Source: a virus. Taken from it: 51,695 bases of DNA. The stretch spans positions 1-51,695 of the IMG/VR virus record IMGVR_UViG_3300048930_000724; one strand, 5' to 3'. The notes beneath the pieces are model-generated. The model saw only the letters and a program-made list of their open reading frames with translations. It was not told the DNA's origin and did not search any database. The position numbers were made by a program, and so were the translations under genes. Positions 23,590 to 29,731 of the stretch are shown piece by piece (the first letter of the stretch is position 1; each line of letters starts with the position of its first letter).

Positions 23590-25473
23590 ATGCTGTCGGC
23601 ATCTGAAATCAAAGTACGGCTCGCGGCGCGCGCGGGGGAAGTGGCGCGGCACCTTCTGCCCGGTGGGCGCATGGAAGCCGGCAATTGGTGCGTGGGCTCG
23701 CCCGCCGGGGAAAAGGGTGATTCCATGCGGGTCCAGATCACCGGCAGCCACGCGGGGCTCTGGGCGGATTTCGCGGGCAGCGACAAAGGCGACCTCCTGG
23801 ACCTGTGGGCGTGCGTCCGCGGGATCAGCCTTGGGCAAGCCCTCAAGGAAGCGAAATCATGGCTTGGCATTGCGGATCCCATCTCATCCGTGCCGGCCAA
23901 AAAATTCTCCCGCCCGAAACCGGAGAACATCATCCGCCTGCGCGAGACACCGGAAACCAAAGTCGAAAAGTATCTGACCGACGAACGCAAGCTGAGCAGG
24001 GACACCATCCTCAAGTTTCTCGTGGGGGCGAGGAATTCCCCGTCCGGCAAAGGGATGGAAATCGTCTACCCCAGCTTCGAGCCCGGGAAGATGGCGATCC
24101 CGGGAAAAGAGAACGAGCAGGCGATCGGGAAACTGGCATCGGTCAAATACATCGCGCTCAATCGGACACCGGATGGGAAGAAGATCATCACCCAGGAACC
24201 GAATTGCGCGCCGGTTCTGTTCGGCTGGCAGGCGTTCACTCTGGGTTCACGCACCGCCATCATCTGCGAGGGCCAGATCGACGCCATGACGTGGCACCAA
24301 TGGGGCTACGAAGCGTTGTCCGTCCCGAACGGCACAGGCGACACCGAGAACTGGATCAGCTACGAGTGGGACAACCTCGCGTGCTTCGACACCATCTACC
24401 TGTCCTTCGACATGGATGAACCCGGGATGGATGCGGTAGTCAAGGTGGCCAAGCGTCTCGGGATCCATCGGTGCCTCATCGTCAAACTGCCGATGAAAGA
24501 CGCGAACGAATGCCTGACCAAAGGGGTGCCGTTCGAGCAAATCGTCCAGGCGATCAATGGCGCGCGTGCCATCACCCCGAATGAAATCAAGAAAGCCTCT
24601 GATTTTCGCGCACAGGTCCATGCCCAGATTCGAGGCGAGGAAGAAGAAAGTGTCGGGCTGAAAACCAAACTGTTCGGACCACGATTTCGGTTGCGGCCGG
24701 CGGAAGTGACGATCTGGACGGGACACACCTCGCACGGCAAATCATCCGTGCTCAAGCAATTGATGGTGGAAGCGCTGATAGCCGGGGAAGGAGTGGCGAT
24801 CGGGAGCTTCGAGGAGAAGGGCCCGACAATGGTGAAGAAGATGGGATGCTGCATCGCCTTCAAGGGGGAGAAGGAAATCACCCATGAGGAAATGGACCAG
24901 ATCATCGACTGGATGGGGGACAAGTTGTGGATTTACGATGTGTTCGGGGTGATGAAGCGGGATCGGCTCGAGGAGTTGATGAAGTATTCCGTGCAGCGCC
25001 ATGGCGTGAAACACATCGTCATCGACTCGATCATGAAGTGCGACCTGTCGAGTGAGGATTACGAGTCACAGCGCCAGTTCCTGAACTTCCTGTGCGGGTT
25101 CGCGCATGATTACGATGTCCACATTCATGTGGTGGGGCACCCGCGGAAAATGAGCGGGGACGACACACCCCCAGGGGTGCTGGACGTGCATGGCGGCCAG
25201 GCGGTGACCGCACAACCCGACAACGTGGTGATCGTCTGGCGCAACAAGGAGAAAGAGAAGGAACGCGAAGACGGGAAGTTGCCCGATCACCGGGAGAACA
25301 CTGTGCCGGACACAGTGGTGTATGTCGGCAAGCAACGGGAAACGGGCGTGGAATTCCGGGTGAAATTGTGGATGAAGCAGAAATGCTTTCGGTTCACCCA
25401 GCATTACGGTGAGGGCCAACCCACATTCGAAGATTTCGGGATCATCCAACAACGAAGTGAAGAACCGTCATGA
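23590..25473 (+). CDS. TOPRIM primase-helicase (Twinkle/T7 gp4-like)
   Basis: 627 residues, replicative helicase with a primase-type N-terminal half. After a DNA-primase-like start (GDLLDLWACVRG, about residue 75) comes a TOPRIM domain: Glu227 in ICEGQIDAM, and Asp274 and Asp276 in FDMDEPGMD. The C-terminal RecA/DnaB fold has Walker A GHTSHGKSS (378-386), Walker B VIDSIMK (Asp479) and a motif-4-like GGQAVTAQPDNVVIVW. The N-terminal zinc finger with paired Cys residues of T7 gp4 is absent, as in Twinkle, so primase activity is uncertain. It follows the origin-bearing initiator gene by 6 bp and overlaps the next gene by ATGA. No DNA polymerase is found nearby. Confidence 0.9.
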   Translation: MLSASEIKVRLAARAGEVARHLLPGGRMEAGNWCVGSPAGEKGDSMRVQITGSHAGLWADFAGSDKGDLLDLWACVRGISLGQALKEAKSWLGIADPISSVPAKKFSRPKPENIIRLRETPETKVEKYLTDERKLSRDTILKFLVGARNSPSGKGMEIVYPSFEPGKMAIPGKENEQAIGKLASVKYIALNRTPDGKKIITQEPNCAPVLFGWQAFTLGSRTAIICEGQIDAMTWHQWGYEALSVPNGTGDTENWISYEWDNLACFDTIYLSFDMDEPGMDAVVKVAKRLGIHRCLIVKLPMKDANECLTKGVPFEQIVQAINGARAITPNEIKKASDFRAQVHAQIRGEEEESVGLKTKLFGPRFRLRPAEVTIWTGHTSHGKSSVLKQLMVEALIAGEGVAIGSFEEKGPTMVKKMGCCIAFKGEKEITHEEMDQIIDWMGDKLWIYDVFGVMKRDRLEELMKYSVQRHGVKHIVIDSIMKCDLSSEDYESQRQFLNFLCGFAHDYDVHIHVVGHPRKMSGDDTPPGVLDVHGGQAVTAQPDNVVIVWRNKEKEKEREDGKLPDHRENTVPDTVVYVGKQRETGVEFRVKLWMKQKCFRFTQHYGEGQPTFEDFGIIQQRSEEPS

Positions 25474-25685
25474 TTGTCGAACACAAAACCACCGAGAATC
25501 TCCGGGACGATATTGACTGCCTGTTCTGCGCGTATTGCCACGAACGGTTTTGTGATCCACGAGAACATCCGGACCTGGTCCTGCCAGTGATCGAGATACA
25601 CCAGACAAGCGAAAACATTTTTCTCCACCGCAACTGCGTGGTGGCATTCGCCAGCCGCATCCTCAACGAATTTGAAAAGCTGTGA
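25470..25685 (+). CDS. Small zinc-binding protein
   Basis: 71 residues with a CLFCAYCHERFC cluster (about residues 17-28) and a later HRNC, a plausible single zinc site. Coupled on both sides (ATGA with the helicase, GTGA with the methyltransferase). Function unknown. Confidence 0.6.
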   Translation: MIVEHKTTENLRDDIDCLFCAYCHERFCDPREHPDLVLPVIEIHQTSENIFLHRNCVVAFASRILNEFEKL

Positions 25686-26530
25686 ATTGGTACAACGAGA
25701 ACGATCCGAAGGCGGCCGCATGGTTGCGGGAACTGATCAAGCAAGGATGGATTGCGCCCGGGATCGTCGATGAAAGGAGCATAGTAGATGTCAAAGCAGA
25801 AGAACTCACACAATACCGACAATGCCACTTTTTCGCTGGAATCGGAGGTTGGTCATTTGCCCTCCGTCTCGCCGGGTGGCCGGACGATCAGGAAGTCTGG
25901 ACCGGTTCCTGCCCATGCCAACCCTTCTCCGTCGCAGGCAAAGCTGAAGGAGTGGGCGACGAGCGGCACCTATGGCCCGCTTTTCATCGGCTCATCGCCC
26001 AGCGCCGTCCTGCAGTCGTCCTTGGAGAGCAGGTTGCGAGCAAGGATGGAAGGTTATGGCTCGCTGGAGTACGAGTTGACATGGAAAGAACTGGATATGC
26101 CCTCGGGGCCGCCGATCTGTGCGCTGCGGGCGTCGGCGCGCCCCACATCCGCCAGCGACTATTCTGGGTGGCCGACTCCACGAGCAGAGGACTCGGAATC
26201 GACGGGGGCGCATCGCGGCAAGCCGGACACACTGACCAGTGCAGCAAGGATCGCGGGATGGCCCACACCAATGGCGGGGAACCCTGGAACGGAGGAATAC
26301 AATCCTGCCGGGAATACCGATGCGAGCAGGAAGGTGGTCGCTTTGTGTTCTGGGACCGATACGAATTCATCCCCTGCCGCGACAACAAACAAAGGCGCAC
26401 TGAATCCGGCCTTTTCCCGTTGGCTCATGGGATACCCGCCCGCATGGGACGATTGCGCGGTTACGGCAATGCCATCGTCCCGGCGCTTGCCGCGGAATTC
26501 ATCCAAGCCTACTGCGAAACAAAGTTGTAA
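25682..26530 (+). CDS. DNA cytosine-5 methyltransferase
   Basis: 282 residues, GTG start overlapping the previous stop. It transfers a methyl group from SAM to C5 of cytosine in DNA. Motif I FFAGIGGWSFAL (about 49-60), catalytic Cys79 in motif IV GSCPCQPFS, Glu in a GEQV variant of motif VI, QRLFWVA for motif VIII, and RGYGNAIVPALAAEFI for motifs IX-X. The target-recognition region is short. Likely role: protection from host restriction or marking of phage DNA. A second long frame with its own strong Shine-Dalgarno overlaps nearly all of it. Confidence 0.9.
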   Translation: MNWYNENDPKAAAWLRELIKQGWIAPGIVDERSIVDVKAEELTQYRQCHFFAGIGGWSFALRLAGWPDDQEVWTGSCPCQPFSVAGKAEGVGDERHLWPAFHRLIAQRRPAVVLGEQVASKDGRLWLAGVRVDMERTGYALGAADLCAAGVGAPHIRQRLFWVADSTSRGLGIDGGASRQAGHTDQCSKDRGMAHTNGGEPWNGGIQSCREYRCEQEGGRFVFWDRYEFIPCRDNKQRRTESGLFPLAHGIPARMGRLRGYGNAIVPALAAEFIQAYCETKL

Positions 26531-26534
26531 GTAG
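25788..26534 (+). CDS. Long overlapping ORF inside the methyltransferase gene
   Basis: 248 codons in a different frame across almost the whole methyltransferase gene. Unlike the other shadow frames it has an ideal Shine-Dalgarno (AAAGGAG, 25773-25779, 8 bases before the ATG). It also encodes motifs that I recall, from memory and unsearched, in other proteins annotated next to phage C5 methyltransferases: TSGTYGP, SLESRLRARM, LEYELTWKE, repeated GWPTP, and NPAFSRWLMGYPPAW near the end. If translated, this is a dual-coding locus. It may still be a conserved but untranslated shadow frame. Confidence 0.5.
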   Translation: MSKQKNSHNTDNATFSLESEVGHLPSVSPGGRTIRKSGPVPAHANPSPSQAKLKEWATSGTYGPLFIGSSPSAVLQSSLESRLRARMEGYGSLEYELTWKELDMPSGPPICALRASARPTSASDYSGWPTPRAEDSESTGAHRGKPDTLTSAARIAGWPTPMAGNPGTEEYNPAGNTDASRKVVALCSGTDTNSSPAATTNKGALNPAFSRWLMGYPPAWDDCAVTAMPSSRRLPRNSSKPTAKQSCK

Positions 26535-26565: not shown

Positions 26566-27093
26566 ATGAACGCATTGCCGCACCAGTACGCCCCGCTCTT
26601 TCGCCGCTTCGCTGAAGGGATCATCTACAAGCCGTCCCAGATGATCATCAAGGAGCTTCGCCGCCCGGACTTTGCCTCCCTTTTGGTGGCGGTCCACGCG
26701 GAAGACATCGGCATTCTATGCGGCGCCCATGGCAAGGTCATCAAGTCCATCCAGACCCTGTTCTCCGAGATTGGCCGGCAACATGGCGACAATGTCCGCA
26801 TCTCGATCGACAAGTTCGGAGAACGAAAGCCAGCGCCGGACGCCTTCCGCACGGTCGATTCGTGGGACCGATCCGGGGAAGCGGTCGAACTGGTGGAGGA
26901 CACCTTGCGGGAGATGAAGCAGAAATGGCGCAGCATCGAGCACCACGACTCCTACGACACCACCATCATCACGGTGAACAGTGACCTGCCCAAGCCGCTA
27001 TTCGACGCTCTGGACGTGGCGATGCACGCGTGGGGCAAAAGCCTCGGCCGCAAAATCCTTCTGGCCAGCCCCGACCAGGTGGTGACCGCATAG
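26566..27093 (+). CDS. KH-domain protein (KhpA-like)
   Basis: 175 residues. Residues of about 38-75 read as a KH nucleic-acid-binding fold: VAVHAEDIGILCGAHGKVIK with a GxxG loop (GAHG, 53-56), then a helix and RISID strand. The rest (KWRSIEHHDSYDTTIITV, ALDVAMHAWGKSLGR) is a second alpha/beta unit. It would bind RNA or ssDNA. KH proteins are rarely noted in phages; this one sits between two DNA methyltransferases. Confidence 0.65.
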   Translation: MNALPHQYAPLFRRFAEGIIYKPSQMIIKELRRPDFASLLVAVHAEDIGILCGAHGKVIKSIQTLFSEIGRQHGDNVRISIDKFGERKPAPDAFRTVDSWDRSGEAVELVEDTLREMKQKWRSIEHHDSYDTTIITVNSDLPKPLFDALDVAMHAWGKSLGRKILLASPDQVVTA

Positions 27094-27108: not shown

Positions 27109-28347
27109 ATGACACCTGAACGAAAAATACTTCTGGGCGATTGCCGGGAAACACTGAAACAACTGCCGGACGAATCCGTGCAATGCGTGGTCACCAGCCC
27201 GCCCTACTTCAATCTCCGGGCATACGGGGACAGCGACAAGGAAATAGGGCGGGAACGAACCCCGGAGGAGTTTGTGGCTGGCATGGTGTCGGTGTTCAGT
27301 GAGGTTCGCCGCATTCTCCGGAAAGACGGGACATTGTGGTTGAACATGGGGGATTGCTATGCAACCGGTGCGGGATCAGGAAGATCGATGGGTGGAAAAT
27401 GTTTCGGTAAACAGAACGCTGTCATCGATGAAGGAGCGTATCCCGAATGTCAGGCCAATCGGATGCCGCTGCCGGGACTCAAACCCAAAGACCTGATCGG
27501 CATTCCCTGGATGCTGGCGTTCGCGCTCCGGGCGGATGGATGGTACCTGCGGAGCGACATCATCTGGAACAAGCCCAACCCCATGCCGGAATCGGTCACT
27601 GACCGCCCCACCAAGTCCCATGAATACATTTTTCTGCTGACAAAAAATCGGGACTATTTTTACGACGCAGAAGCGGTGAAGGAATCTGTGTCCGGGACTG
27701 CTAACCCGAGGGGGAACGGTGTGAACCCAAAAGCTAAAACACCCGGGAAGAATTCCCGGGTGTTTCAAGACCGTGATCCAAATCATCCATCCGAACGCAA
27801 GACCCCTCGACCAAAACAAAACGAATCCTTCTCTGCTGCTATCTCTGGCAACTTGGTGACAAGCCGGAACAAGCGTTCCGTCTGGAGCGTGGCGACAGCA
27901 CCATTCGCTGATGCCCACTTCGCCACCTACCCACCCGACTTGATCAAACCCTGCATCCTTGCGGGCACATCCGAACGTGGCTGCTGTGCGGATTGCGGTG
28001 CGCCCTACGAACGCATCCTGGAGAAACCGGAGTTCCAGAACAAAGGTGAATCATCCACCAAGTATGACGGACAAAGCACAGCAGGAAGACTTGCTAAACT
28101 TCGCCAAGCAGCACGCGAGGCTGGAGTTGAATATACCGGCACCAAAAAAACCCTCGGATGGAAGAAGACGTGCCAGTGCACAACCGACCTGACAAAACCT
28201 TGCACTGTGCTCGATCCTTTCGCCGGCAGTGGCACCACCGGTGAAGTGGCGGGGGAACTCGGTCGCAATTTCATCGGATGCGAACTCTACGAAAAGTTTC
28301 TCCCGATGATCGAACGCAGAACCTCTCAACCCGGGCTGATGCTGTGA
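27109..28347 (+). CDS. Beta-class DNA methyltransferase (N6-adenine or N4-cytosine)
   Basis: 412 residues. Catalytic motif IV TSPPY (29-33) precedes SAM-binding motif I DPFAGSGTTG (from about residue 369), the beta-class order. The spacer contains target-recognition sequence and a zinc-like CCADCGAPY...CQC cluster found in many phage members. The start (CCGTATGACA) has no Shine-Dalgarno. It would modify adenine or cytosine amino groups, complementing the C5 enzyme. TSPPY alone does not decide between A and C. Confidence 0.9.
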   Translation: MTPERKILLGDCRETLKQLPDESVQCVVTSPPYFNLRAYGDSDKEIGRERTPEEFVAGMVSVFSEVRRILRKDGTLWLNMGDCYATGAGSGRSMGGKCFGKQNAVIDEGAYPECQANRMPLPGLKPKDLIGIPWMLAFALRADGWYLRSDIIWNKPNPMPESVTDRPTKSHEYIFLLTKNRDYFYDAEAVKESVSGTANPRGNGVNPKAKTPGKNSRVFQDRDPNHPSERKTPRPKQNESFSAAISGNLVTSRNKRSVWSVATAPFADAHFATYPPDLIKPCILAGTSERGCCADCGAPYERILEKPEFQNKGESSTKYDGQSTAGRLAKLRQAAREAGVEYTGTKKTLGWKKTCQCTTDLTKPCTVLDPFAGSGTTGEVAGELGRNFIGCELYEKFLPMIERRTSQPGLML

Positions 28348-29002: not shown

Positions 29003-29731
29003 ATGAACCACATTGTAGCCTTGTCTGGCGGTAAAGACTCGACCGCAATGGCGCTTCGTTTGGCGGAGATTGAACCACGCGATTACGTTTACGTGTGCAC
29101 TCCCACCCAGAACGAACTCCCAGAAATGAAGGCGCATTGGGATCGGATGGAACAGTTACTCGGAAAGGAACTGATTCGCGTTCATGCCAAGCTCGACCTG
29201 AAAGGTTTGATCGAATTTTTCAAAGCCCTACCCAACAATCGCCAGAGATGGTGCACCCGGATGCTGAAGATTGTTCCTTACCAGAAATGGCTCGAAGGAA
29301 TGACCCCGGCAGTGAGTTACGTGGGGTTGCGTGCGGATGAAGACCGGCTGGGGGTGGTTTACGATGAACAATCCGGGGTCACTCAGGATTATCCCATGAA
29401 GCGTTGGGGATGGAACCTGGATGATGTCATTCATTACCTGTCTGAAAAACGCATTCGCATCCCGAAACGAACTGATTGCGCGTGGTGCTACGACCAGCAG
29501 CTTGGCGAATGGTTCCGTCTCTGGCGCGATCACCGCGATTTGTTCGACGAAGGCGACGAACTGGAGCAGAAATATGGGCACACCTTCCGTAGTCCCACCC
29601 GAGACACATGGCCGGTGGCGCTGCGTGATCTGAGAAAGAAGTTCGAAGCGGGGATCACTCCGCGCGGTGCCGCCCAGGAAACAATGGATTTCAGTGACGA
29701 CATGGCAAGGTGCCGTGTTTGCAGAATGTGA
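29003..29731 (+). CDS. PP-loop (PAPS-reductase/DndC-like) protein
   Basis: 242 residues. The PP-loop SGGKDS (8-13) marks an ATP-pyrophosphatase that adenylates a substrate. RWCTRMLKI (Cys84) is close to the CTxxLKI signature of DndC-like PAPS-reductase relatives. Additional Cys pairs (Cys159/Cys162 in CAWC; Cys237/Cys240 in CRVC) could hold an Fe-S cluster. True assimilatory PAPS reductases have a different C-terminus. Possible roles are DNA sulfur or base modification or tRNA thiolation; the adjacent methyltransferases favour DNA modification, by inference. Confidence 0.75.
   Translation: MNHIVALSGGKDSTAMALRLAEIEPRDYVYVCTPTQNELPEMKAHWDRMEQLLGKELIRVHAKLDLKGLIEFFKALPNNRQRWCTRMLKIVPYQKWLEGMTPAVSYVGLRADEDRLGVVYDEQSGVTQDYPMKRWGWNLDDVIHYLSEKRIRIPKRTDCAWCYDQQLGEWFRLWRDHRDLFDEGDELEQKYGHTFRSPTRDTWPVALRDLRKKFEAGITPRGAAQETMDFSDDMARCRVCRM

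Follow-up and report, generated by a model that had tools for sequence, protein, structure and literature searches.

Sequence comparisons across phage homologues indicate that a C5 cytosine methyltransferase gene in a virus record from IMG/VR (51,695 bases, here called the window) is truly dual coding, with both frames behaving as selected protein-coding genes that have their own start signals. The first frame, alpha, encodes the methyltransferase, while the second, beta, is read in the +1 frame and overlaps almost the whole alpha gene. We consider it probable that the locus is a gene for a two-polypeptide C5 cytosine methyltransferase whose subunits share the same DNA. The features on which the argument draws are the following.

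25682-26530, + strand: alpha, C5 cytosine methyltransferase ORF of 282 aa with a GTG start
25788-26534, + strand: beta, second ORF of 248 aa (248 codons) with an ATG start, +1 relative to alpha
25773-25779, + strand: beta Shine-Dalgarno AAAGGAG, 8 nt before the beta ATG and within the alpha codons for D-E-R-S
25682-25685, + strand: GTGA start/stop overlap, formed by the alpha GTG and the TGA of an upstream 71-aa ORF (25470-25685)
25829-25849, + strand: alpha motif I, FFAGIGG, from the translation; kept in A2, A4 and A6
25913-25921, + strand: alpha catalytic PCQ (motif IV), from the translation; P78 and C79 invariant, Q80 nearly so
26166-26180, + strand: beta GWPTP, copy 1; the same DNA encodes the end of alpha motif VIII, FWVADST
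26256-26270, + strand: beta GWPTP, copy 2, from the translation; its DNA lies within the stretch for alpha residues 172-222
26195-26347, + strand: alpha residues 172-222, predicted disordered (pLDDT <50), in the usual place of the TRD
26400-26447, + strand: beta LNPAFSRWLMGYPPAW, proposed motif IX, from profile alignment; AF2 helices 207-214 and 219-223
26465-26482, + strand: alpha motif X, GNAIVP; of the canonical motifs IX and X, the alpha profile aligns to X alone

Judging from the GTGA, alpha is likely translationally coupled to the upstream 71-aa ORF. The initial annotation had described a 248-codon frame lying over almost the whole methyltransferase gene and preceded by AAAGGAG, and the beta ORF and its Shine-Dalgarno site agree with that description; the motifs that it quoted (TSGTYGP, two GWPTP and LMGYPPAW) are all found in the second frame.

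In the window sequence the +1 frame of alpha contains no stops where 3.3 are expected, but it is open in about 2% of codon shuffles, so this sequence alone is only suggestive. Homologues were recruited with alpha-frame peptide patterns only, keeping the best 80 matches per search, and the set is thus not selected for an open second frame. Clustering at 70% identity gave 136 non-redundant genes, analysed from motif I to motif X against a null in which the synonymous codons of each gene are shuffled, preserving its own codons and GC. The +1 frame is stop-free in 132 of these genes against 6.7 expected, with a mean of 0.04 stops versus 3.1 in the null, and a chance ORF was rejected on these counts. 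Stops are not depleted in the +2 frame or in the three antisense frames of the same homologues, and an antisense gene was likewise rejected. Among homologues of 45-55% GC, 17 of 18 are open in the +1 frame (0.2 expected). Canonical Dcm/restriction-type C5 methyltransferases from the same host genomes have 12, 4, 6, 16 and 8 stops in this frame, near or somewhat below their null, against 0 in the phage-type copies. A distant family, recruited with enzymes of a Paenibacillus phage and a spring-water podovirus and ranging from 41 to 64% GC, is also open in 25 of 37 members where 0.3 are expected (30 stops versus 208 expected), which indicates that the phenomenon is wider than the family of the window; its query sequences show the motifs LTWK, WPTP and LNPxWVExLMGFP.

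Four copies carrying an indel in both frames may be errors or pseudogenes and were left out of consideration: Krischvirus LF73P4 (L417), Pseudomonas phage PACT201 (L418), L033 and L034. The indels shift the two frames together, and in L033, L034 and LF73P4 the N-terminal frame of beta thereby runs into the C-terminal frame of alpha; these four copies may represent error, decay or chimera.

Codon usage provides additional clues on the extent of the second gene. Where two homologues share an alpha amino acid inside the overlap, they use the same codon in 65% of pairs at residues 101-165, 67% at 223-245 and 66% at 246-270, against 32-38% in the null for these stretches. Before the beta start (alpha residues 3-35) codon identity is 42% versus 39% in the null, and past the end of most betas (alpha residues 271-282) it is 44% versus 41%. 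Codon choice is thus frozen inside the overlap and at the null level outside it, so that the frozen codons delimit the second ORF. Alpha residues D165 and S166, under the first GWPTP copy, reach codon identities of 0.97 and 0.92, against null values of 0.52 and 0.25. In effect, alpha third codon positions are beta second positions, and they are slowed inside the overlap only. The dN/dS of beta (dNN/dNS, 77 disjoint pairs) is 0.64 in the overlap (bootstrap 0.59-0.69) and 0.93 (0.84-1.04) in an alpha-only control region, both being simple counts without multiple-hit correction, so that the contrast with the control weighs more than the absolute values. Purifying selection acting on the second frame in addition to that from the methyltransferase, which the initial annotation had proposed looking for, is therefore present. 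The start signals are conserved as well: the alternative-frame ATG occurs in 95% of homologues versus 55% in the null, and 76% versus 20% have it together with a Shine-Dalgarno match of 4 nt or longer. The earlier suggestion that both frames may be genes is thus backed by stops, synonymous sites, alternative-frame dN/dS and start signals. The proteins beside other phage methyltransferases that the initial annotation mentioned are, among the homologues examined, nothing other than the methyltransferase gene read in the +1 frame, in some cases under the label 'DNA methyltransferase'.

Alpha matches PF00145 (2e-14) and phrog_363 (1e-75), and carries motifs I, IV, VI, VIII and X of a monomeric C5 methyltransferase in a single chain (FFAGIGG, PCQ, GEQV, RQRLFWVA and GNAIVP, respectively). 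GEQV is a variant of ENV in which the E is invariant. Neither the profile comparison nor the AF2 model places a TRD and motif IX in this same chain. The model is confident for most of residues 1-165 and for 267-281, whereas 172-222 and 246-262 come out as disordered; the folded part retrieves M.HaeIII and M.HhaI as top Foldseek matches. Beta matches phrog_1008 (1.5e-27) and phrog_31772, both named 'DNA methyltransferase' by annotation, and searches of its sequence against Pfam and PDB gave nothing usable. A tblastn search retrieves beta from 228 phage records, and alpha from 412. AF2 models most of beta with low confidence (mean pLDDT 61, pTM 0.26), predicting a helix-hairpin at 71-117 and, across the proposed motif IX, a pair of short helices. 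Foldseek returned no usable match for this model in the PDB, and mainly other beta copies among viral models.

A clue to the role of beta lies toward its C-terminus. Beta terminates in GALNPAFSRWLMGYPPAWDD and shows the pattern LNPxxxxWLMGYPxxW, to be compared with LTPRECARLMGFE or LTPREGARIQSFPDTF in motif IX of the canonical C5 methyltransferases used for comparison. When 88 betas are combined in a profile and set against canonical motif IX-X segments, the alignment falls at motif IX only and in exact register, with a score of 18.4; none of 150 column permutations reaches this value (mean 9.3, maximum 14.2). The alpha profile aligns with the same segments only at motif X. Against canonical enzymes HHalign gives the short motif IX low probabilities (3-41%), and the case for it thus rests on register and permutation. 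Beta also matches mycobacteriophage Winget gp5 with an HHalign probability of 90.5. In Winget gp5 the motif shares its frame with motif X and is located past the end of the alpha ORF, indicating that the motif is not a shadow of alpha. Loci recruited by beta have alpha in the same place every time, and no locus with beta but without alpha was found among them. From these profiles we infer that beta carries the motif IX that alpha lacks. A role as partner subunit goes beyond the initial annotation, which assigned no function to the second frame.

In this context, we put forward the following scenario. Alpha, made from the GTG at 25682, would provide a large catalytic domain with the cofactor and PCQ motifs (I-VIII) plus motif X. 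Independent initiation at the ATG at 25788, directed by AAAGGAG, would allow the same mRNA to be read in the +1 frame to give beta. This chain would contribute the motif IX helix and, probably, some or all of the domain that recognises DNA, a domain that could sit in either alpha or beta. The two chains would then join in a 1:1 complex, the active enzyme, and methylate phage DNA. Phage methyltransferases have a role in evading restriction, and evasion of host restriction would most simply be the purpose of the methylation here. The binding of beta to alpha, the need for both chains, the target and the role are the parts of this scenario that we infer.

Comparable arrangements provide a frame for this proposal. 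In M.EcoHK31I the coding frame of the small chain lies, out of phase, within the gene of the large chain, and the window locus has this same arrangement. M.EcoHK31I is a two-polypeptide C5 methyltransferase whose large chain has motifs I-VIII and X and whose small chain has motif IX (PMC3404938); compared by published layout, alpha and beta divide the motifs in the same way. In contrast, M.EcoHK31I is a characterised enzyme with the target YGGCCR and a TRD predicted in the large chain, whereas the present case is phage-borne and its beta is nearly the full length of alpha. In M.AquI, a split C5 methyltransferase recognising CYCGRG, catalysis and recognition fall to separate chains (PMC3404938). 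The window locus would resemble it in such a split; however, M.AquI has both IX and X on its small chain, whereas in the window locus motif X stays in alpha. Among mycobacteriophages, cluster O gp6/gp7 (Corndog; genes 5/6 in Winget) also have a +1-frame ORF with the motif IX region overlapping a catalytic ORF, but the overlap is partial (~210 nt) and it is the second ORF that carries motif X. Cresawn et al. reported an HHpred match of Corndog gp6, the homologue of Winget gp5, to the C-terminal helices of M.HaeIII, and did not decide whether the two products assemble (PMC4351075). Escherichia phage K1G has the same locus type, with both overlapping CDS annotated as ORF31 ('C-specific methylase') and ORF30 ('Mte8-like protein'), a parallel known from annotation only. 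A search of a literature library found no analysis of the K1G-type overlap, and the name 'Mte8' leads nowhere; a search for descriptions of the overlap returned only the cluster O discussion and mentions of M.EcoHK31I.

Alternative scenarios deserve consideration. Both frames could be genes with beta a separate protein overprinted on the methyltransferase, for example a regulator, an inhibitor or an anti-restriction factor. A beta of this kind would fit the lack of Pfam and PDB relatives, the large disordered parts of its model and the shortness of the motif IX match. Yet that match is in register and absent from alpha, the Winget gp5 motif is in frame with motif X, and beta was not found apart from alpha in the loci that it recruited; we thus regard a separate protein as unlikely, though it is the most credible of the alternatives.

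Programmed +1 frameshifting, yielding a single protein that begins at the alpha start and continues in the beta frame, is an option listed by the authors of the mycobacteriophage cluster O study (PMC4351075). It appears very improbable at the window locus, given that alpha stays open as far as motif X in the tested homologues, and that a conserved ATG and Shine-Dalgarno of its own lie near the 5' end of beta, whose frame is conserved from that ATG onward. We give still less credence, indeed hardly any, to an untranslated second frame kept open as a by-product of codon bias, GC content or RNA structure. High GC and the roughly 2% of shuffles in which the window sequence stays open are in its favour, but the excess of open frames over a null that keeps codons and GC (132 versus 6.7 of 136), its persistence at 45-55% GC and in the distant family, its frame specificity and the conservation of ATG and Shine-Dalgarno all argue against it. 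A two-polypeptide methyltransferase sharing one stretch of DNA therefore remains the reading that we prefer.

Judged by frame conservation, well over a hundred divergent lineages of phages and prophages share the double coding. This breadth seems to be undescribed, although some records annotate both ORFs, as in K1G and PhiXhv-28; some others annotate alpha only, and the records of PhiXhv-7, Cr-LKS3 and FoX4 annotate beta only, two of them as a methyltransferase. In Acidovorax phage Alfacinha3 (L283:1029-2195), the CDS named 'cytosine-specific methyltransferase' is a beta-type frame, and the catalytic motifs lie in another, unannotated frame. We hold as evenly balanced the broader possibility that these loci form an old and large class of phage C5 methyltransferases, with catalytic and recognition/motif IX subunits in overlapping frames, present in phages of Proteobacteria, cyanobacteria, Firmicutes and Actinobacteria; specificity and the catalytic frame would then be mutually constrained, and many 'DNA methyltransferase' or 'hypothetical' entries would be the second frame. 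It is rare in DNA phages that a long same-strand overlap is proven to encode a full protein in each frame, and a near-whole-gene overlap that recurs so widely offers a natural laboratory for the evolution of dual coding. If beta is the second subunit, this would explain why so many phage C5 methyltransferases look incomplete, and would correct a systematic annotation error in which gene-calling programs retain just one frame or the second is named after the first.

Further genes were noted in the surroundings of the locus. Directly downstream of the dual-coding gene, 26566-27093 (+) encodes a 175-aa protein with a KhpA/KhpB-type KH domain (PF13083, 4e-11), placing a KH-domain RNA-binding protein in a phage replication/modification region. 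A second DNA methyltransferase, of the N6/N4 type (PF01555, 5e-45), follows at 27109-28347 (+), and a PAPS-reductase-family protein (PF01507, 1e-8) is encoded at 29003-29731 (+); a member of the latter family is also found near the Alfacinha3 methyltransferase. Finally, the genome of the Morganella locus L132 carries a canonical C5 methyltransferase on two ORFs (G002:C9:1508-2047 and 2259-2489), an AquI-like split in which the ORFs cover PF00145 positions 2-182 and 252-323.
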